Below are positions 63-54,390 of a stretch of DNA of 64,000 nt, piece by piece. This DNA comes from Thermincola carboxydiphila (GTDB taxonomy: Bacteria > Bacillota > Thermincolia > Thermincolales > UBA2595). Numbering within the stretch: the stretch's first letter is position 1; the number at the start of each line of letters is the position of its first letter. The position numbers and the translations under genes were made by a program. Location: assembly GCA_016841725.1 (NCBI GenBank), contig JAENYP010000005.1:59493-123492 (forward strand), given 5' to 3'. The notes under the pieces are model-generated. The model was not told where the DNA came from and did not search any database. It was given only the letters and a program-made list of their open reading frames with translations.

Positions 63-148
63 TTTATTTTTTCATCTCTTTATCTTTTGTTTATCTCTCT
101 CTTTTGTTTATTCCGCTCTTTTTATTTATTAATATTTTTATGTATGTG

Positions 149-405
149 CTTAGGAAATGACCGTAGAATGTGGTGAGGTGCTGCACAAGATTTTCCTTGC
201 AGCGCCACTGTGAGAAATGTTGCCGCCGTTCCGCTAAGCGAAGTACGGGACGCGGGCCATGGACGGCCCGCGCCGCCACTGAGGCAGGAGCCGAATTGGC
301 GGTGTTCCCGTGCTTCGCCAGGAACAAGGCTACTTTTCTCCAGCGGCGCTGCGGAAAATCGGTGCAGCAGCTCACCACATTCGCTCACGGTCATTTCCGG
401 AAGCC
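149..405. repeat. Palindromic interspersed repeat, copy A
   Basis: The outer arms are inverted: the left arm carries GGAAATGACCG and TGGTGAGGTGCTGCACAAG, the right arm carries GCAGCAGCTCACCACATTCG and CGGTCATTTCC. The centre (about 210-330) is unlike the other copies and contains GC-rich sequence. The same arms recur at 5599, 7378, 8677 and, as a half copy, 36950. This copy lies between the T-box terminator and the window edge, so it would sit in the leader of the downstream gene. Open frames through it are palindrome artefacts. Confidence 0.8.
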
Positions 406-427
406 TCCACCTAAATAAAAATCTAAA

Positions 428-5598: not shown

Positions 5599-5781
5599 TG
5601 GCTCTGGAAATAAGGCGGGATGTGGTGAGGTGTTGTATAAGGTTTTCCTGGCACCGCTGCCGTTATGAGTCTTGCTGCAAATCACCGGCAACAAGGCAGG
5701 TAGGCAGCAGCATAGACCCATAGGCAGCGGTGCGGAAAACCGTTACAATACCTCACCTTATCTCAGCCTTAATCCGGAGCC
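5599..5781. repeat. Palindromic interspersed repeat, copy B
   Basis: Left arm GGCTCTGGAAATAAGGCGGG then TGTGGTGAGGTGTTGTATAA; right arm AATACCTCACCTTATC then AATCCGGAGCC. The internal segment GGCAGCAGCATAGACCCATA is shared with copy D. On the minus strand the element starts immediately after the TAG stop of the FHA gene (TAG-GCTCCGG), and fills the gap before the kinase gene. Confidence 0.85.
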
Positions 5782-7325
5782 TACTTAACCCGAAAACAAT
5801 ATTCCACGTTCGCAAAAGCGACCCTGTCATTATGCTTCAACTCATACTGCTGGCTGCTCAGAATCCTGGTATTATTTATTAAGGTGCCGTTTTTGGAATC
5901 CATGTCCAGGATGTAATAGACATTATCAACGGCTTTTATCCTGGCATGGGCCCTTCCGATGCTCCTGTCCCTGATGGCATAATCACAGGCGCCCTCATTC
6001 CTTCCTATGATAAACTCAGGTTTGTCGATTACTATTGTCTCATCCCCGTTAACAGCCATCAAAAACGGATAATCCACTCCTCCCAGCAGCACTGTTTCTT
6101 CTGTCAGCATAGCTTCATCTGACACGGCTCCTGCATTCGGCACATTTACTGCATCCGGCAAATCTGATGGAACAGGCATATTTGCTATATCCGGCACCTT
6201 TGAAGAAACAGGCACATTATATGCATCCAGTTTCTCTTTAGGTTCAGACTGGTTGATCTCGGCCACAAATCTCTGCAGACCGGCATGACGGCTGACGGTT
6301 TCCTCTTCCGGCGGCCTTCCGGACTTCTTCCCGGAACTGACCAGCCAGACCACTGCCCCGCCTGCTACCAGGAGCGCTATTGCCCCTGCAGGCAGATATC
6401 CGGCCAACTGTGAATCAGCCAGAATATCACCAAAGCTTCCTATGCTGTTATAAATATTGGATAATATGGCCCCGGTAACAGCAATCACAGCCAGCGCCGC
6501 CAGGGCTATTGTCCTGGTATTTTTCCCTGCTCCCGTAACAGTGGTATCCAAAGGCTGCAGCTCACAGGAAACCCCTGCTGCGGCAGCCTTATCCGTATTC
6601 ACTAAGCCGGGCGGCACGTTAATCCCGGTCGAACCCGTCTCACCGCTTATACATGCTGCACCGATTTCCTGATTCGCCATGCTGCAATCATCCACATCAA
6701 TAGTTTTCAAGCGCCTGCAAAATTCACCGGGGTTAAAAGCGCCACTGCCAAAAAGCTTCAGCAGCTTCTGGACAAAATTGTCTGCAGTATCTATATTGGC
6801 GCTGCAGATCAGGGTATTGACCACCATCGTTTTAAAGGACTGGCCTGTGTCCTGCTGAATTCCGGCCGGAATGTATATCAGAAAAACGTCTTTGGTTACC
6901 GGATTCAGGTAAATAAAGTCCTCATTAAATACAAAAGAGCTGCTGTCCAGATAGTACCTGCAGCCATCAGATAGAACCGAAACCATACCCTCCAGCAGCC
7001 GGATAAATTCAATCTTACTGATGCACTGCCTCTTCAGGTGATTTCTCAGGCTTACCAGTCCGGTCAGGTCATAATAAATTTCCAGCTCGGCATTCTTTTC
7101 CCTTATCTGAATCTGCACAATACCGGGAATATTATTGTTTGCCAGCATTTCCACCTGAAAACCCAGAATATCTCCGCTTTCAAGCCCATCTTTGCTGAGA
7201 ACGAGAAAATTTTTCCCTGAATCGACCCTGCACTCCGTCTTAAATCCCCACAGAACACCTGTCACTTTCACATCAACCTCCCGGTAATATATAAGTCTCT
7301 CGGTTAAACCTCTCACAAGTTTCAT
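5781..7325 (-). CDS. DUF6382-like/FHA-domain membrane protein
   Basis: About 514 residues. The N-terminal 180 residues (VKVTGVLWGF, LEIYYDLTGLVSLRNHL) look like the DUF6382 domain often fused to FHA in Clostridia. Two hydrophobic segments follow (near 280-300 and 325-345), then a linker rich in V/P/D/N repeats (SSKVPDIANMPVPSDLPDAV), then a C-terminal FHA domain: FIIGRNEGACDYAI, RSIGRAHARI, DMDSKNGTLIN with the conserved G-R, S/H and N residues that bind phosphothreonine. It is the likely partner or substrate of the kinase encoded next. ATG 7325 (GGAG ten bases upstream) was chosen; the longer open frame to 7472 runs through repeat copy C and is not a real N-terminus. Confidence 0.85.
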   Translation of the reverse strand: MKLVRGLTERLIYYREVDVKVTGVLWGFKTECRVDSGKNFLVLSKDGLESGDILGFQVEMLANNNIPGIVQIQIREKNAELEIYYDLTGLVSLRNHLKRQCISKIEFIRLLEGMVSVLSDGCRYYLDSSSFVFNEDFIYLNPVTKDVFLIYIPAGIQQDTGQSFKTMVVNTLICSANIDTADNFVQKLLKLFGSGAFNPGEFCRRLKTIDVDDCSMANQEIGAACISGETGSTGINVPPGLVNTDKAAAAGVSCELQPLDTTVTGAGKNTRTIALAALAVIAVTGAILSNIYNSIGSFGDILADSQLAGYLPAGAIALLVAGGAVVWLVSSGKKSGRPPEEETVSRHAGLQRFVAEINQSEPKEKLDAYNVPVSSKVPDIANMPVPSDLPDAVNVPNAGAVSDEAMLTEETVLLGGVDYPFLMAVNGDETIVIDKPEFIIGRNEGACDYAIRDRSIGRAHARIKAVDNVYYILDMDSKNGTLINNTRILSSQQYELKHNDRVAFANVEYCFRVK

Positions 7326-7377
7326 CCTATTCATGCTCCAGGGCTTGCTTAATGGGTTTTGTTTGCATCTTATCTTT

Positions 7378-7493
7378 GGCTCAGGAAATGACCGTGAAAT
7401 ATGGTGAGGTGTTGTACAAGATTTCTCCGGCAGTACTGCGGAAAACCGGTACAATAGCTCACCATATTTCAATTCCGGTCATTTCCTAAAGCC
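7378..7493. repeat. Palindromic interspersed repeat, copy C (compact, near-perfect)
   Basis: The most compact copy, about 116 bases. GGCTCAGGAAATGACCG and ATATGGTGAGGTGTTGTAC on the left pair with GTACAATAGCTCACCATAT and CCGGTCATTTCCTAAAGCC on the right around a short centre containing CAGTACTG. On the minus strand the prepilin peptidase stop codon TAG lies inside its first bases (GGCTT-TAG-GAAATGACC). As RNA it would fold into one long hairpin. Confidence 0.9.
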
Positions 7494-8016
7494 AAACATA
7501 CACTATAACCCAGTTAACAATCGTCCCTGGAACAATGGCTAATGTAAAAATAAACTTGGAATCTTTGTCCCCCTTCATACTGTAGGGGAAAAGCCTCCCT
7601 GTCAGGAGTATGGTTTTGGCATAGCCATAAAGTTTCCACATCCTGTCCCGAAACTGTCCCCTCCGGATTAACAGCCAGCACGCTATGACACCTCCAATAT
7701 ATACGGAGAAAAGAAAACAGTACACCACAAAGGGAAGGCCCATAATCGCCCCTATAGCGGCAAAGAGCTTGATATCTCCGGCGCCCATAACATTTATGTA
7801 GTAAAGGATAAACAGCGCCAGTACCGGAAGAAGCCAGCCTTTCACAGCCAGCAGCGCTCCCGGAGCGCCGCGCTCCGCAAAATTAACCAGGAGACCGGCA
7901 GCGGCTGCCGGAAAGGTAACAGCGTTTTTTATCCGGCAGTACCTGATATCAAAAAACAGCGCTGCTGCCAGGGTAACGGCCAATATCAGGGTCTTTGCCG
8001 CAAACAAACCGGTCAT
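7486..8016 (-). CDS. tadV: Prepilin peptidase, TadV/CpaA type
   Basis: 176 residues with about six hydrophobic segments. The two active-site aspartates of type IV prepilin peptidases are visible: LFFDIRYCRIKN (near 22) and the GxGD-type motif MGAGDIKLFAA (near 90). It lacks the N-terminal methylase domain, as usual for Tad systems. It would cleave the Flp-like pilin and TadE-like pseudopilins encoded upstream. Start ATG 8016 overlaps the TGA of the preceding tadE (ATGA). The stop lies at the edge of repeat copy C. Confidence 0.92.
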   Translation of the reverse strand: MTGLFAAKTLILAVTLAAALFFDIRYCRIKNAVTFPAAAAGLLVNFAERGAPGALLAVKGWLLPVLALFILYYINVMGAGDIKLFAAIGAIMGLPFVVYCFLFSVYIGGVIACWLLIRRGQFRDRMWKLYGYAKTILLTGRLFPYSMKGDKDSKFIFTLAIVPGTIVNWVIVYVWL

Positions 8017-8630
8017 AGGACACCTGCCTCTCCGGGGTCATTGAGAGGGGTCTGGCCATCAGCCCAGGCCCTTTCAACCGCTGTAGCGGAAAGGGGAATC
8101 ATTCTGCTGAAAAAGGGTATCAGGAGCTTGACCCGGTATTCCACCACAATGGCCACATCTTCATTATTCAGGGAGACATTATTGATCGGGCTGCTGCTGC
8201 CAGCCGTACCATTAGGGTTATATACGGAAACCCTGGAGATCTGAAGATCAGCGTCATCCAGCTCCCCCAGAGGATAGATCTCTTTGATTCGTTCCCGGGC
8301 AATCTCTTTGATAACTGTTTCCAGTGCCAGACTGCTCCCCTTGGCCACAACCCGGTTAAAAATTTCGCCAATAATTCCCGCTTGAGACATTTTTTCTCCT
8401 GTGAGCAAATTCAGTGTTTTGCTGTCGGTTTTTAATTCTTTCAGAGGGTATGCATGTGCAGCAATCTGCTTCACAGTCTCACTGACAGCGTGGTCCATGG
8501 CCACGTAAACCATAACCACATTAATGAAATTAATAATTGCCATCATCATAGCCAGAAACACCGGGAATATTATGGCTGCTTCCACAGTAAGACTACCCCT
8601 GGAATCCTCCAAAACTCTTCTTAGTATCAA
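8013..8630 (-). CDS. tadE: TadE-like pseudopilin/pilus assembly protein
   Basis: 205 residues. A short basic leader is followed by RGSLTVEAAIIFPVFLA, the TadE-type processing site and hydrophobic helix (G-[S/x]-x-x-V-E at the junction). The remaining 150 residues form an exported domain without cysteines. In Tad systems these minor pseudopilins help assemble the Flp fibre. The TTG start at 8630 follows AGGAG by about twelve bases. It is translationally coupled to the prepilin peptidase. Confidence 0.85.
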   Translation of the reverse strand: MILRRVLEDSRGSLTVEAAIIFPVFLAMMMAIINFINVVMVYVAMDHAVSETVKQIAAHAYPLKELKTDSKTLNLLTGEKMSQAGIIGEIFNRVVAKGSSLALETVIKEIARERIKEIYPLGELDDADLQISRVSVYNPNGTAGSSSPINNVSLNNEDVAIVVEYRVKLLIPFFSRMIPLSATAVERAWADGQTPLNDPGEAGVL

Positions 8631-8676
8631 TGTTTTTTTCTGCTCCTATCAATTCATTCTTTTATTTTTTAGGGCA

Positions 8677-8835
8677 GGCTCCGGAAATGACCGCGGCATA
8701 TGGTGAGGTTTGAGCCATCGAGTTCGGGGACGCTGCCTTGTTGCCGGGGAGGCAGCAGCATAGACTCATAGGCGGCACTGCGGAAAATCGGTATAACAGC
8801 TCACCATATGTCATTCCCGGTCATTTCCCAGAGCC
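8677..8835. repeat. Palindromic interspersed repeat, copy D
   Basis: Left arm GGCTCCGGAAATGACCGCGG and CATATGGTGAGG; right arm ACAGCTCACCATATG and CCGGTCATTTCCCAGAGCC. The inner part GGCAGCAGCATAGACTCATA matches copy B. On the minus strand it starts directly at the stop of the DUF5702-like gene (CAG-TAG-GCTCTGGG), between that gene and tadE. Confidence 0.88.
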
Positions 8836-10811
8836 TACTGGTACCCAAACTCAACCTCTTTGGTGATATAACACCTGCCCTCCCTGATCTCAGAATCAAA
8901 CGGCCCTGCCTTCAGATTGCCGAAACCCGCCAGGGGCAGAAACCACATTTTCACTGAGACCGTTATATAGCCATCAGCCAGGGTCGGCAGTTCCCCGGTA
9001 TCAATGCCGGACCTTTCCCTGACGAGTTCGTCGATTCTGCCCAGCTTTGCCTCTTCAGCGGAATGCAGCAGCATAAACAGCCTCAGGTGGTCCTTATAGC
9101 TCAGCGGAGGGGTTCTTCCCAGCGGATTGTCAGGGAACATGGAGGCAACAGGGACACTGTCCTGTGCAATTAACGCCTTATATGTATCTGCCGCAGCTTC
9201 AAGGGCCCCCATGATGAGGGAATAAACCGTCCTTGCCGGCAGGTCGGCAGGCGCCTTGCTGAAGGCAAAATAGGCCGCACTGTCCAGAGCAAACCTGGTA
9301 AAGTAAAGTTCACTTACAGCCAGGGCCATTGGCGCCCCGGTTCCGTAACAGATGTATTCAGCTTCGGTGTTCCGGTAAGGGTAAGGGGGGGACCCCTTGG
9401 GCTGGGAGGTGAGAAACGAAAAGTAGGTCAGCACATACTCATTGATATAGATTTCATCCCTGAGTTCAGTTAACCGCTCCCCCACATTAATAATGCCGAA
9501 AATCTTCCGGAACAGGCCTGAGATGGAATCAGCCCTGGAACCATACCTGTCCGCAAACCTTTTCACATCCCCATCGATAATCTCAGGCGAAAAGAGCGCC
9601 TCAAGCTCATCAGCTCCCGGAGTACTCTCTGTTCCCGGACTACTCTCTGTTCCCGGACTACTCTCTGTTCCCGGACTGCCGTCTGTTCCCGATGTGTACT
9701 GCTCTATTTGATCCTGCAGCTGCTCCGCGTGTAGGGCTGTCCCGCCTGTTTGCGGGGAAACCGGGGTTTTCGCGGCTGCTGAGATTCTTTCATAAGCCTT
9801 TGTTGCCGCATCAATACCGATTTTCTCAAAAATACTATCATCCGCTTCCTGGGCGCGGGCCTCTGATTCCAGGGCCTCCCTGGTCTGTTTCACATTGGCG
9901 TCAATCCCCTGCAAATCCAGGGACAGCCGGTCAATAATGGTCCCGATGCCCCGGTTAACCGTCTCCTCACCGGTGACTGCGGCCCCGCTCCCTGCGGGAC
10001 CATAGTTCCGGTAAACATCCGAATCGGGGAATTCCTCCAGCTTTTTGATTTCCTGCTCGATTTCGTTCCTGGCAATCTCAGTCTTGTCCACTTCCCCTGC
10101 AATCGCCAAGCGGTTTGCGGCCATTTTGTCTTCAAGGCGCGCCTTCCTCTGTATCAGTTCACCCAGCCGGTCATTATCACTGCGGGAATCCGGGTTCCGC
10201 AGCCGGGTTATCTCCCTTTTGACATTAATCAGTTCTGTTTTGTCCTCCCGCAGTTCATTTTTAAAGCCTTTAATGCTGCGGTTATTTTCATGGATGCCTT
10301 CCAACTTATCATTTATCTTGGAGTAACTCTTTCTTTTTTCATTATTGACATCAAAAAACCGGGCCATATCCCCTATCTGGCGGAATTTATCAATTAATTC
10401 CCTGGTAATATCAACCGGGGCCCTGTACTTCATGGCCTCAAGGATCTGCTGTCTGAGAACCTCGTTCCTGCTGACGGGACGGGTCAAGTAAATATTCCCC
10501 TCTTCATACCTCAGGTCCAGTAACTTGAAATCCTTCCGGGAAGTGTCCGGGAGATTGGCTGTAACATATTTTTTAAAATCTGCCGCAAAGTCAGACCTGT
10601 TAGCCCCAAACAGCATGTAACCGCTCTTCAGTCCGGTATGATAATCTGCCATCACGGAACGTGCCGAGCTATCGGCGATTCTCCGCAGGTGGTTCTGGGC
10701 AGCCTTGATTCTGGCCAGGTCCACAAAAAGTCCGGTAACGAATAGTATCGCCGTGAACACTATCACCAGGTAAACTGTAATTGTTCCCTTCTCCCTCTGT
10801 GACAGCATCAT
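8835..10811 (-). CDS. DUF5702-like Tad-associated surface protein
   Basis: 658 residues. It begins REKGTITVYLVIVFTAIL, a TadE/TadG-like processing region and single membrane helix, followed by IKAAQNHLRRIADSSARSVM, typical of TadG/DUF5702 proteins. Residues about 160-265 are charged and heptad-like (coiled coil). Near 375-400 there is a repeat of SSPGTE units encoded by an 18-base tandem repeat. The C-terminal third (LTYFSFLTSQPKG and onward) is the conserved part. It is expected at the cell surface as part of or tip to the Flp pilus; its exact role is unknown. ATG 10811 follows AGGAG by six bases. Confidence 0.75.
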   Translation of the reverse strand: MMLSQREKGTITVYLVIVFTAILFVTGLFVDLARIKAAQNHLRRIADSSARSVMADYHTGLKSGYMLFGANRSDFAADFKKYVTANLPDTSRKDFKLLDLRYEEGNIYLTRPVSRNEVLRQQILEAMKYRAPVDITRELIDKFRQIGDMARFFDVNNEKRKSYSKINDKLEGIHENNRSIKGFKNELREDKTELINVKREITRLRNPDSRSDNDRLGELIQRKARLEDKMAANRLAIAGEVDKTEIARNEIEQEIKKLEEFPDSDVYRNYGPAGSGAAVTGEETVNRGIGTIIDRLSLDLQGIDANVKQTREALESEARAQEADDSIFEKIGIDAATKAYERISAAAKTPVSPQTGGTALHAEQLQDQIEQYTSGTDGSPGTESSPGTESSPGTESTPGADELEALFSPEIIDGDVKRFADRYGSRADSISGLFRKIFGIINVGERLTELRDEIYINEYVLTYFSFLTSQPKGSPPYPYRNTEAEYICYGTGAPMALAVSELYFTRFALDSAAYFAFSKAPADLPARTVYSLIMGALEAAADTYKALIAQDSVPVASMFPDNPLGRTPPLSYKDHLRLFMLLHSAEEAKLGRIDELVRERSGIDTGELPTLADGYITVSVKMWFLPLAGFGNLKAGPFDSEIREGRCYITKEVEFGYQ

Positions 10812-36949: not shown

Positions 36950-37008
36950 GGTAGGTAAGGTGTTGTACCGATTTTCCGCACCGCCGCCTATGAATCTAGA
37001 CTGCCAAC
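36950..37008. repeat. Palindromic interspersed repeat, half copy E
   Basis: AGGTAAGGTGTTGTACCGAT followed by TTTCCGCACCGCCGCCTATG matches, with some changes, one arm and the inner part of copies B and D (TATACCGATTTTCCGCAGTG, CCGCCTATGAGTC on the opposite strand). The second arm is missing. It is upstream of the small gene at 37034. Confidence 0.65.
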
Positions 37009-49786: not shown

Positions 49787-50344
49787 TTAATAACGAGAAT
49801 GATCTAACATATTTACATTCTGGGGATTAAATACAACCGTCTTCTCAAAGCACTTCATTTTGGCGTTAAATTTATAGTCGGTAACCAAAAACCCCGCACT
49901 GCAATTCTGCATTGTAGTTATATGTACAGTATTTTGTTCTGAGGTATATATCCAATAGTTTAATTCACCAAGTTGAACATAATCATCAAAAAGAATATAC
50001 TCATTATCACCATCAATAACTGTCAAAAGCCAGGGCTGACCATCATCCCAGGCAATTTGACCTTTAGGGTCTTTTTCAGCCGCTGTGTATAATTGAACTG
50101 ACTCTTCCTGTCCGTCTTGATTAATGTCAATCTTTGAATCATCAAGCAAAGTCAGCATATCCACGGTATTCTTTATTTTCGTCGCGTATATGAAATCTTC
50201 TTTTGTGTCAGTCTGCTGACCGTTAGGACTACTTGGCGATTGAATCTGGTTTTGACTGGCATTTTGTGTGTTTGAACACCCAACAAATAACCCCAAGAAA
50301 GTTACGATAAGTAAAACAAAAAATATCCTTATTCCCTGTTTCAA
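49787..50344 (-). CDS. Lipoprotein of unknown function (185 aa)
   Basis: Signal peptide with lipobox FVGC (Cys 23), then a low-complexity N/Q/S linker (SNTQNASQNQIQSPSSPNG) and a domain with KIDINQDGQEESVQLYT, a calcium-loop-like or FG-GAP-like D-x-N-x-D-G motif. It is expected on the outer face of the membrane. TTG 50344 follows GGAGGGGG. Its promoter region contains the deleted rluA copy. Confidence 0.75.
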   Translation of the reverse strand: MKQGIRIFFVLLIVTFLGLFVGCSNTQNASQNQIQSPSSPNGQQTDTKEDFIYATKIKNTVDMLTLLDDSKIDINQDGQEESVQLYTAAEKDPKGQIAWDDGQPWLLTVIDGDNEYILFDDYVQLGELNYWIYTSEQNTVHITTMQNCSAGFLVTDYKFNAKMKCFEKTVVFNPQNVNMLDHSRY

Positions 50345-50374
50345 AACCTTACCCCCTCCTATAATTCCGGTGAA

Positions 50375-50555
50375 AATTATTATTCTTCATATTACCATTT
50401 TAACTTATTTGGCCCCTTTTGTCTGTCCTAATTCCGGTATCGTTATATGTTTGAACAAGCTGCGCTTCACCCACCCCCGCAGCGGGAAAGAAGTAATTCT
50501 GGGTGTTCCATTGGCGGCGGACATACAGGCGGCTATTGATCATCCGGTTAAGTAG
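50375..50555 (+). pseudogene. Internally deleted copy of the rluA-like region
   Basis: 50375-50440 matches the non-coding region 53335-53400 upstream of the rluA-like gene (TTTTAACTTATTTGGC, TTTTGTCTGTC in both). At about 50450 it jumps to the 3' end of the gene, with AACAAGCTGCGCTTCACCCA and CGGTTAAGTAGTAAAAC matching 54288-54396. About 890 bases are missing. The remaining 34 codons (NKLRFTHPRSGKEVIL) cannot act alone. Confidence 0.85.
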
Positions 50556-51742: not shown

Positions 51743-51860
51743 TGACGTACTCCCACCACCTACGCTAACGCTTAGAGGTAGGGGCTTCTTGGGACGTACC
51801 AACCCACGTTGGTATAATTACCAAGCTATCCCCGTTCGCCCAACGGTTATTTGATTATGT
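51743..51860 (-). ncRNA. Candidate TnpB guide (omega) RNA region
   Basis: The region from the tnpB stop to the right end can fold into hairpins (CCTACCTCTAAGCG/ CGCTAACG... GTAGG and AACCCACGTTGGTATAAT). In IS605 elements the omega RNA overlaps the tnpB 3' end and runs into the flank, which would act as guide (about 51720-51740). Placement is inferred from family knowledge. Confidence 0.4.
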
Positions 51861-52770
51861 CAGGCTATACCAAGTATCCGGCAGCCTTCATTTTTGATAT
51901 TGATGGCAGCGTTGACATCCCTGTCCAGTTCTGTTCCGCAGTGGGGGCAGGTCCAGTTTCTGTCTGCCAAGGTCAGTTCTTTATTTTCATGCTTGCATAT
52001 ATGACAGAGTTTGCTAGATGGATACCATTTATCGATAATGACAAGCTGTTTACCTTGATCCGCTAGTTTGTATGCCAAAAAGGTTTTTAGCATCCCAAAA
52101 CCATTATCATTGGTTGATTTTGCCAAATTCAAACCTTGGGCCATGCCTCTCATATTTAGGTTCTCTATGGCAACACCATCATAGGCATTGGCTATCTGCC
52201 TGGACAGTTGATGCAAAAAGTCCTTCCGCTGATTGGCAACCTTCTCATGAAGTTTGGCAACTTTACGGCGTTGTTTGGCCCTATTTTGACCGCCTTTTTT
52301 CCTTTTTGATAGTTTTCGTTGTTCTCTTTTCAGCCTGGCTTCTGCCTGGCGGTAATATTTCGGATAGTCCGGACTGTTTGTCTTACTATCAACAAATAGT
52401 GCTTTGGAAGAATAGTCAAGTCCGATTGTGGTTTCTACCGTGGGTGTTATTGGCTTTATTTGAACTTCATATTGAACCACAATAGCTATGTAATATTTCC
52501 CTGTTGGTGTTTGACTGATGGTTGCTGATTTGATGATGACGTTTTGTGGTAATGGCCTATGCATTTTAATGCGCACATCTTTTAATTTGGGTAATCGAAT
52601 GGCTTTACTGTCAATAAACCTTATGGTTCCTTTTTGGTTATTGGTTGTGTAGGATTTTTTATCATGATGCATATTCGATTGTATACAAACCGTACACAGC
52701 CAAAGGTTTTATTTATGAGAATGGCTTGCTCTTTGTTCGGATAAAGGCGGTATTTATATGCTTTATTCAC
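51860..52770 (-). pseudogene. tnpB: TnpB RNA-guided nuclease gene, frameshifted with deletion
   Basis: The GTG start at 52770 overlaps the tnpA stop (GTGA), and MNKAYKYRLYPNKEQAILIN is the normal TnpB start. At about 52675 the frame changes and a stretch of the N-terminal helical region is missing; the second frame then continues IRLPKLKDVRIKMHRPLP to the end. RuvC residues appear intact: D in TIGLDYSSKALF, E in VAIENLNMRG and D in ELDRDVNAAINI. The zinc finger CHICKHENKELTLADRNWTC is present. A 270-residue C-terminal piece could still be made, but it lacks a normal N-terminus. Confidence 0.85.
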
Positions 52771-53090
52771 AGCTTCTCACCCTGGCTTTCAATATATCTT
52801 TTTATCACCTCAAGCGGTGCACCACCGGTTGTAAGTATGCAAAAACTTCTTGACCAAAAGTTTTCTTCCCAGAGGCAGCTACGTATTTGCCGGTATTCTT
52901 TTTTTATCAGGCGTGATGATGCACTTTTATAGGCATTGATAAATTTTGATAATTGGGTGTTAGGATGAGCTTTGATTTCTTTCAGTCTATTTGAGATAAC
53001 ATCATCAATTACTTTTCTACGGTATTTTATAACAAGAACGAGGTGGTAATACATGAGAAATACTGAATGGTTATTATTATCTAACTCCAT
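52767..53090 (-). pseudogene. tnpA: TnpA Y1 transposase gene with internal deletion
   Basis: 107 residues instead of about 130-155. MYYHLVLVIKYRRKVID and the catalytic-Tyr region LSKFINAYKSASSRLIKKEY and LTTGGAPLEVIK are present. The segment between RLKEI and KAHPNTQ, which should hold the HUH metal motif, is missing. The product cannot carry out transposition. Confidence 0.85.
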
Positions 53091-53493: not shown

Positions 53494-54390
53494 TTGAACA
53501 ATACAAATTTAACATATACAGCAACTACTCTGGATCAGGATACTTTTCTAAGGGACATACTATCCGCTAAACTCTTGTTGTCCCATTCTCTGGTAGTACG
53601 GCTTAAGCAGCAGAACAAAATAAAGGTGAACGGGTATACGGCCCACGTAAACTACCTCATCAATGCAGGGGATATTATCACCATCGATATGGACCTCACT
53701 GAGGAGAGCAAAATCATACCCGAGCCGATTCCTCTGGACATAATCTACGAAGACGTGGACTTCCTGGTGGTGAACAAGCCCGCGGGTATGTCCACTCATC
53801 CATCCCGACAGGGAGGCACCGGCACCCTTGCTAACGCGGTAACTTATTACTGGCAGGAGTTGGGAAGGAACACCCTTTTTCGCCCGATAAACCGCCTGGA
53901 TAAAGACACTTCAGGGTTGATTCTGATAGGGAATAGCCAGTTTGCCCATCAGGGCATATTCAATCAGGTAAAGGGCCGCACTATTGAGCGAAGTTATATT
54001 GCCTTGGTAGAGGGATTGATGGCAAATGACAGCGGTCGTATCGACCAGCCAATCGCCCGGCAAGATGATAAAAGCCGCCGGAGAATAGTCCATTTAGACG
54101 GCCATCCAGCAGTCACCCATTATCAGGTACTCGATAAATATCCGGGACATACCCTGCTGTCATTAAGACTGGAGACCGGCCGCACCCACCAGATAAGGGT
54201 GCATCTGAGCTTTCTCGGTCATCCGATATGTGGTGACCTCCTTTACGGGTGTGCTTCACCATTGATAGACCGGCAAGCCCTGCACGCCAACAAGCTGCGC
54301 TTCACCCACCCCCGTAGTGGGAAGGAAGTAATTCTGGAGGTTCCATTGGCGGTGGACATACAGTCGGCTATTAATCATCTGGTTAAGTAG
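53494..54390 (+). CDS. RluA-family pseudouridine synthase
   Basis: 298 residues. N-terminal S4-like region (LLSHSLVVRLKQQNKIKVNG), then the catalytic motif RPINRLDKDTSGLILI with the nucleophile Asp, and DFLVVNKPAGMSTHPS. It converts uridine to pseudouridine in rRNA or tRNA. TTG 53494 follows GAGGGAC. A deleted copy of the same locus lies at 50375. Confidence 0.93.
   Translation: MNNTNLTYTATTLDQDTFLRDILSAKLLLSHSLVVRLKQQNKIKVNGYTAHVNYLINAGDIITIDMDLTEESKIIPEPIPLDIIYEDVDFLVVNKPAGMSTHPSRQGGTGTLANAVTYYWQELGRNTLFRPINRLDKDTSGLILIGNSQFAHQGIFNQVKGRTIERSYIALVEGLMANDSGRIDQPIARQDDKSRRRIVHLDGHPAVTHYQVLDKYPGHTLLSLRLETGRTHQIRVHLSFLGHPICGDLLYGCASPLIDRQALHANKLRFTHPRSGKEVILEVPLAVDIQSAINHLVK

Follow-up and report, generated by a model that had tools for sequence, protein, structure and literature searches.

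Several families of bacterial repeats resemble the element described here. GTAG-type repetitive extragenic palindromes (GTAG-REPs) are 20-40 bp long, conserve GTAG in >90% of members, are accompanied by a RAYT transposase in most host species, and often lie just after genes with an end that provides a TAG stop codon (PMC3733652). In streptococcal BOX elements, which are regarded as parasitic and of low activity, 36 of 58 overlaps with coding sequences are 3' ends, with the BOX encoding the stop codon (PMC3049150). The Coxiella miniature inverted-repeat transposable element (MITE) QMITE2 inserted in frame at the 3' end of a gene and altered the C-terminus of its product (enhC; PMC5896051). Replication template switching, in turn, creates reverse-complement repeats and both makes and repairs hairpin stems (PMC8794818). 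The main text of PMC3733652 mentions neither Thermincola nor Firmicutes or "Clostridi". Here we describe a family of long palindromic intergenic repeats in Thermincola carboxydiphila, of which five pieces (copies A to E) lie in one 64,000-nt stretch of the genome (contig JAENYP010000005.1, positions 59,493 to 123,492; hereafter the window), three of them in a Tad/kinase operon. The family is real and extends from the genus to the order level, and its kind is already known. Its members are probably non-autonomous palindromic elements of MITE-, REPIN- or BOX-like type that spread in ancestors of the Thermincola family and were homogenised by template switching. Stop donation by repeat ends is already published for GTAG-REPs and BOX, and the freshest part of our findings is an apparent upkeep of the arms and flanks at the DNA level.

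The Thermincola copies share several traits with each of these systems. Like GTAG-REPs and REPINs, they are non-coding palindromes in gaps, lie mostly just downstream of genes and between co-directional genes, and have ends that give TAG. However, they are mostly 96-320 bp long, compared with 20-40 bp for GTAG-REPs, and no RAYT was found with them in this genome or its relatives. The likeness to BOX elements, which is one of description and not of sequence, lies in their modular intergenic build, variable length and stop donation, whereas two alternative palindromic cores between common arms replace the boxA-B-C build. Bacterial MITEs such as QMITE2 share the size range of 100-400 bp, the long palindrome and the in-frame insertion at a gene 3' end (PMC5896051), but no parent insertion sequence was seen here among the element ends listed, and no clear target-site duplication in the flanks. 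Finally, imperfect arms that are homogenised, paired multi-base changes and new stems are also found where template switching acts on quasipalindromes (PMC8794818). The published cases concern RNA genes and Escherichia coli hotspots, whereas here the process would act over a dispersed family and draw in host flanks.

A dispersed family of palindromic repeats

The 3.88-Mb genome (40 contigs) contained 65 copies, of which 58 were found by BLAST and profile searches and seven more by an end-pattern search; a second copy at locus L010 and the copy at L058 are doubtful members. Copies with both ends spanned 96-320 bp, apart from two outliers (378 and 418 bp), and clustered at ~317 bp (class I core), ~265 bp (class II core) and 96-191 bp. 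They are short, non-coding and numerous and carry terminal inverted repeats, as MITEs do. A class I query matched 8 of 61 genomes (this genome, two in the genus, four in the family and one in the order), and the class I core region matched 7 of 398 genomes of the phylum, all inside the same family/order group. A genome from another family of the order (G009, locus L100) has kept the class I core between different, unrelated-looking arms. Genome G005 (L094) has a class II-like core and similar arms, with the extra downstream motif described below on the far side. For site-by-site comparison we used the two other genomes of the genus, G001 and G002. The nearest named relative found was a Thermincola ferriacetica metagenome-assembled genome (MAG), whose FHA protein is 64% identical over its best-matching segment.

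The high copy number, the empty sites in relatives and the genus-to-order distribution bear out an earlier note, written from the window sequence, which had proposed a dispersed REP/MITE-like element. That note would have given up its proposal had the arms belonged to a known element family; no sequence match turned up in anything searched, and the behaviour is that of known kinds. With Rfam covariance models run on the window and 51 loci, the lone overlap with a copy was a marginal TwoAYGGAY match in L035 (43.1 vs 43 bits), which was taken as chance on a long hairpin. No description of the family was found in the literature on Thermincola repeats and palindromes, as judged from titles and with few subscription journals covered.

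Gene ends, stop codons and empty sites

Genes were called by a codon score trained on 27 open reading frames (ORFs) of the window, and their start positions are approximate. We define as left the end with a consensus near GTA-GGCTC(T)CGGAAATGACCG. Thirty-nine of the 65 copies lie between genes running left to right, nine between genes both running the opposite way, six between divergent and two between convergent genes, with nine unassigned. The link to gene ends suggested earlier is therefore directional, with 39 stop-facing copies vs 9 reverse ones between co-oriented genes (P = 1.5e-5).

Thirty-eight copies have a left end and genes on both sides, the upstream one on the same strand. In 28 of them, the stop codon of this upstream gene lies inside the left end or ≤15 nt upstream of it. 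Uniform placement in today's gaps predicts 7.1 (reached in 0 of 200,000 simulations), a null that overstates the excess because the insertions themselves enlarged those gaps. The absence of any genome-wide link to stop codons, which would have spoken against the earlier note, was not observed. In 41 copies, the left end is preceded by a co-oriented gene, whose stop overlaps the first 29 nt in 19 and lies 0-15 nt before them in 10; without the two doubtful copies, it falls within -15 to +18 nt of the left end in 27 of 39. Tiles from G001 and G002 together gave 28/38 copies between co-oriented genes and 18/25 stops within -15 to +18 nt, although many of these copies represent the same ancestral insertions. 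The donated stop is often a TAG at the element edge (L022, L024, L033, copy D, and also copy B, whose edge was placed by hand); in another frame, it is the TGA of GGAAATGA (L003, L007, L046, L048).

Stops donated in this way could mark the elements as giant relatives of GTAG-REPs that were spread by a RAYT-type Y1 transposase since lost from the genome, with the tag supplying the stops. TAG or TAA is indeed present in 33 of 53 left ends vs 16 of 55 right ends, and GTAG-REPs have the corresponding position and stop-giving end (PMC3733652). We nevertheless consider this origin quite unlikely, given that the copies are several times too long, that no element arm lies near any of 11 Y1 loci scanned, and that exact GTAG occurs in only 14 of 53 left and 8 of 55 right ends (degenerate forms left uncounted) vs >90% in GTAG families. 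On those counts, GTAG was also rejected as a fixed feature of the ends.

The pieces in the window and the genes around them are as follows (positions within the window).

147-406, minus strand: copy A, class II core, full palindrome (~260 bp), 85% to class II copy L033
3912-5516, minus strand: protein kinase gene, downstream of copy B
5599-5783, minus strand: copy B, class I palindrome, internally shortened; full class I at the site in G002, remnant in G001
5781-5783, minus strand: TAG stop of the FHA gene, at the edge of copy B
5781-7331, minus strand: FHA / DUF6382 gene, between copies C and B
7296-7506, minus strand: copy C with downstream flank, ~211 nt, absent from the orthologous operon (G001 / T. 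ferriacetica MAG)
7377-7494, minus strand: copy C, short palindrome (~118 bp)
7486-7488, minus strand: TAG stop of the prepilin peptidase gene, inside copy C
7486-8016, minus strand: prepilin peptidase (Peptidase_A24) gene, upstream of copy C
8013-8630, minus strand: TadE-like gene, downstream of copy D
8677-8837, minus strand: copy D, class I core in shortened form; G002 and G001 carry class II core sequence here
8835-8837, minus strand: TAG stop of the Tad-domain gene (called DUF5702-like in the earlier note), at the edge of copy D
8835-10811, minus strand: Tad-domain (TadE/G-like) gene, upstream of copy D
36953-37004, plus strand: copy E, part of the stop-facing arm and nothing else; site occupied by a full class I copy in G002

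The canonical orientation of copy A (stop-facing end first) is on the minus strand. Copies A to D are imperfect palindromes with common arms, as had been claimed for all five; copy E is a one-arm fragment. The claim that B, C and D start at the TAG of the preceding gene holds exactly for B and D but only roughly for C, where the TAG lies ~7 nt inside the element. The last residues of the prepilin peptidase are encoded by copy C bases (V-W-L-stop), and the G001 peptidase ends in W-V-L-F-Y-L-I. Of the three operon copies, only C is cleanly missing from an orthologous operon, with 9 nt between the aligned flanks in G001 / T. ferriacetica MAG; at the B and D sites, the relatives hold a full copy, a remnant or a class II core.

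Copy A directly follows the terminator of an adjoining minus-strand stretch at 420-560, which reads AAGGGTGGTACCGCGG...TTTCGTCCCTTACCGGGTGAAGGCTTTTTTATTTTT and which we take to resemble the 3' part of a T-box leader. No T-box was listed in an Rfam gathering-score search of the window, and a comparable leader was found in G001 (L148). Elsewhere in the window, a 111-nt repeat (91%) at 50268-50555 and 53494-54390 is a duplicated 3' end of a gene that is presumably pseudouridylate-synthase-like.

Orthologous flanks could be compared at about 15 sites per relative, plus L046 in both relatives and L055 in G002. Clean empty alleles were found for L014, L019 and copy C in G001, for L047 in G002, and for L046 in both; our own L046 locus has an extra gene after the element. 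At L014, the empty allele reads CAATAAAAAAGG and the filled allele CAATA followed by the element, and at L047, the empty allele reads AACAGTTAACC and the filled allele AACAGTTA followed by the element. Both insertions fall between the TA and the A of a TAA stop, which becomes TAG. By eye, the left target side follows TA at two clean empty sites, and the right side is mostly AA or TA.

At five empty sites, the ancestral stop-to-start gap was only ~14-34 nt (by eye) with the ribosome site inside it, and a tolerated insertion must therefore fall beside the stop. This bears on whether an enzyme that senses stop codons or translation termination inserts the elements there, as the 28 of 38 nearby stops and the exact placements at L014 and L047 might suggest. 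Such targeting is very unlikely in our judgement, since the short gaps force nearness to the stop, some copies between divergent genes (L016, L004 and others) have no stop at either end, and those at L019, L018 and L053 were placed 10-15 nt after the stop. The results support a link to gene ends, but not an insertion specificity for stop codons as such. We attribute the proximity to stops chiefly to the tightness of the operons, with a possible preference for TA, and have no explanation for the directional bias.

Arm pairing, mirrored flanks and core class differences

As the earlier note expected, long RNA hairpins are predicted on the gene strand for copies B (-108.2 kcal/mol, z -12.3), C (-63 kcal/mol, z -11.3) and D (-67.5 kcal/mol, z -4.7). 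Furthermore, the arms co-vary. Across 76 copies (this genome, G001 and G002) and 41 columns where both arm consensuses agree, the same new base stood in both arms in 124 cells, vs a mean of 35.1 (maximum 52) in 500 partner shuffles, although the cells are not all independent events because some copies are orthologous.

The earlier note thought that the element may set relative expression or RNA stability. Such covariation would be expected if transcribed hairpins were under selection to protect the 3' end of the upstream transcript or to set operon stoichiometry. The strong predicted folds, the shared orientation of 39 of the 48 copies between co-oriented genes and the fact that most compared insertions are common to species agree with this. 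However, one-sided arm mismatches on the gene strand comprise 92 G-U vs 150 A-C (two-sided P = 0.0002), the opposite of what helix selection in mRNA predicts, and therefore speak against selection for a gene-strand RNA helix. Orthologous copies also differ greatly in length and even in core class, nine copies are reverse-oriented and six lie between divergent genes, and the inverted copies of coding DNA outside the element described next would not be expected. We therefore regard selected RNA hairpins as an unlikely explanation. By symmetry, the opposite strand would have a G-U excess, for which antisense RNA or a strand mutation bias is possible.

The matching of the two arms continues into host DNA. 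In 65 pairs of sequences just outside the element, the left flank matched the reverse-complemented right flank of the same copy with a mean score of 6.05, vs 2.92 across copies, and the sum was reached in 0 of 20,000 permutations. At L046, host coding sequence ATATATTCAAAC on the left is mirrored by GTTTGAATATAT on the right, and the right-hand copy is absent from the empty G001 and G002 alleles. At L014, the flanks ATCAGTCA and TGACTGAT mirror each other, and the inverted host copy is likewise absent from the empty allele; the gene-end CCCATTAT at L055 is mirrored more fully here than in G002. Terminator-like T-tracts in the left flanks are mirrored as right A-tracts at L034, L021 and L052. 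Template switching would be the simplest account of both arm and flank matching, as far as present-day sequences can tell, no event having been seen directly.

The cores, by comparison, change between species at the same site. Site D has a class I core here and class II in G002 and G001, site L056 has class II here and class I in G001, and site L055 has class II here and class I in G002 (by eye), where both copies retain arm features peculiar to the site. Core exchange by recombination through shared arms fits; two separate insertions at an identical position are less likely. Short forms or fragments here correspond to long forms in G001 or G002 at L024, L034, L037, L039, B and E, and orthologous lengths can differ severalfold (L016, 320 vs ~75-100; L034, 124 vs ~440; L039, 130 vs ~320). 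In our reading, the short forms arose by deletion in place. The relatives have a copy or a remnant at most of the sites compared, and recent movement looks rare.

Spread, companion sequences and meaning

The favoured reading, that of mobile palindromes homogenised by template switching, builds on the dispersal of the copies, the sites that are empty in relatives, the two core classes with their common arms, orthologous length differences and stop-donating ends. Some enzyme acting on hairpin ends, possibly in single-stranded DNA, would have inserted the elements, often after TA, and they would now mostly be inherited in place. Copies would survive if the ribosome site of the following gene stays intact; in tight operons, this confines them to the few bases between the stop and the Shine-Dalgarno sequence. 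Replication would then switch template between the arms, so that one arm is corrected from the other, and would at times place an inverted copy of neighbouring host DNA on the opposite side, while recombination through shared arms would swap or delete cores. A regulatory duty for the host would not be required.

A Y1 transposase (PF01797) was considered as the driver. One intact protein and fragments were present in this genome, and PF01797 was found in 5 of 8 relatives and in none of G001, G004 and G006. None of the 11 Y1 loci scanned had an element arm beside the gene. We take the proteins at L041 in this genome, L186 and L190 in G002 and L191 in G009 to be IS200/IS605 TnpA-like, and the candidate was rejected on these two grounds. 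By eye, no pair of inverted ends 0.5-3 kb apart was seen among the ~100 of 202 end places listed. The window itself contains, at 51860-53090, what is presumably an IS200/IS605-like remnant with a TnpB-like ORF; its Y1 transposase ORF (PF01797) is shortened mid-gene relative to the intact L041.

A minority of copies have a further conserved stretch ~12-36 nt past the right end (L006, L010, L033, L038, L039, L047, L052 and others), consisting of an A-rich linker and then roughly AGTCCAAGGCGCAAAGCCTTGAACATAAAGGAAATT..ATTTCCGAGAGACTTA. It resembles a terminator hairpin on the reverse strand, after which come a small GGAAATT/ATTTCC hairpin and GAGAGACTTA; the first half looks like a reverse-strand intrinsic terminator. 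The motif also occurs, whole or partial, without a palindrome (L059, L066, L073, L080). A sequence model (R1) derived from 12 copies had 29 genome matches at E ≤ 1, including matches directly after a stop without a palindrome (L066, L073, L080), and 3 of its 5 matches in the G001/G002 tiles adjoin a palindrome; an earlier hidden Markov model of the motif had its 11 training copies among its own matches. A three-way-junction RNA leader was dropped as a candidate after RNAalifold gave no pairs and single folds were uneven. The motif may be a companion module of the element. Near-identical terminator-like sequences also adjoin the copies at L021, L052, L171 and L172, which suggests duplicated loci, repeat included; c-di-GMP-I type riboswitches were called near L021 and L052.

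Several observations weigh against the favoured reading. No transposase partner was found at the Y1 loci scanned and no full-length autonomous copy among the end places listed, and a clear target-site duplication was not readable from the flanks by eye. The empty alleles could be losses instead of sites that were never filled. Tolerance of insertions alone accounts for neither the orientation bias of 39 vs 9 nor the frequent presence of the extra motif after the right end. Moreover, a terminator-like hairpin stands beside the element at several sites (by eye), and some of the flank inversion could come from hairpins that the host already had there.

A more speculative possibility, which we hold only tentatively, is that the palindromes extend themselves. 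Besides repairing the arms, template switching would write inverted copies of neighbouring host sequence (gene ends, terminator tracts) onto the opposite side so that locus-specific stems grow, with the cores acting as interchangeable cassettes between conserved arms and operon gaps of ~20 nt becoming structured spacers of 200-450 nt; the spread itself may use replication fold-back, with no dedicated transposase.

Arm covariation is commonly taken as proof of a functional RNA helix. A large natural family that shows covariation without a G-U excess, and host DNA in the stem, offers a test case for the maintenance of stems at the DNA level. For Thermincola, it means that tight operon gaps turn into long structured spacers, that the end of a repeat takes over the stop codon of the gene before it, and that the repeat core at one site can change between species.

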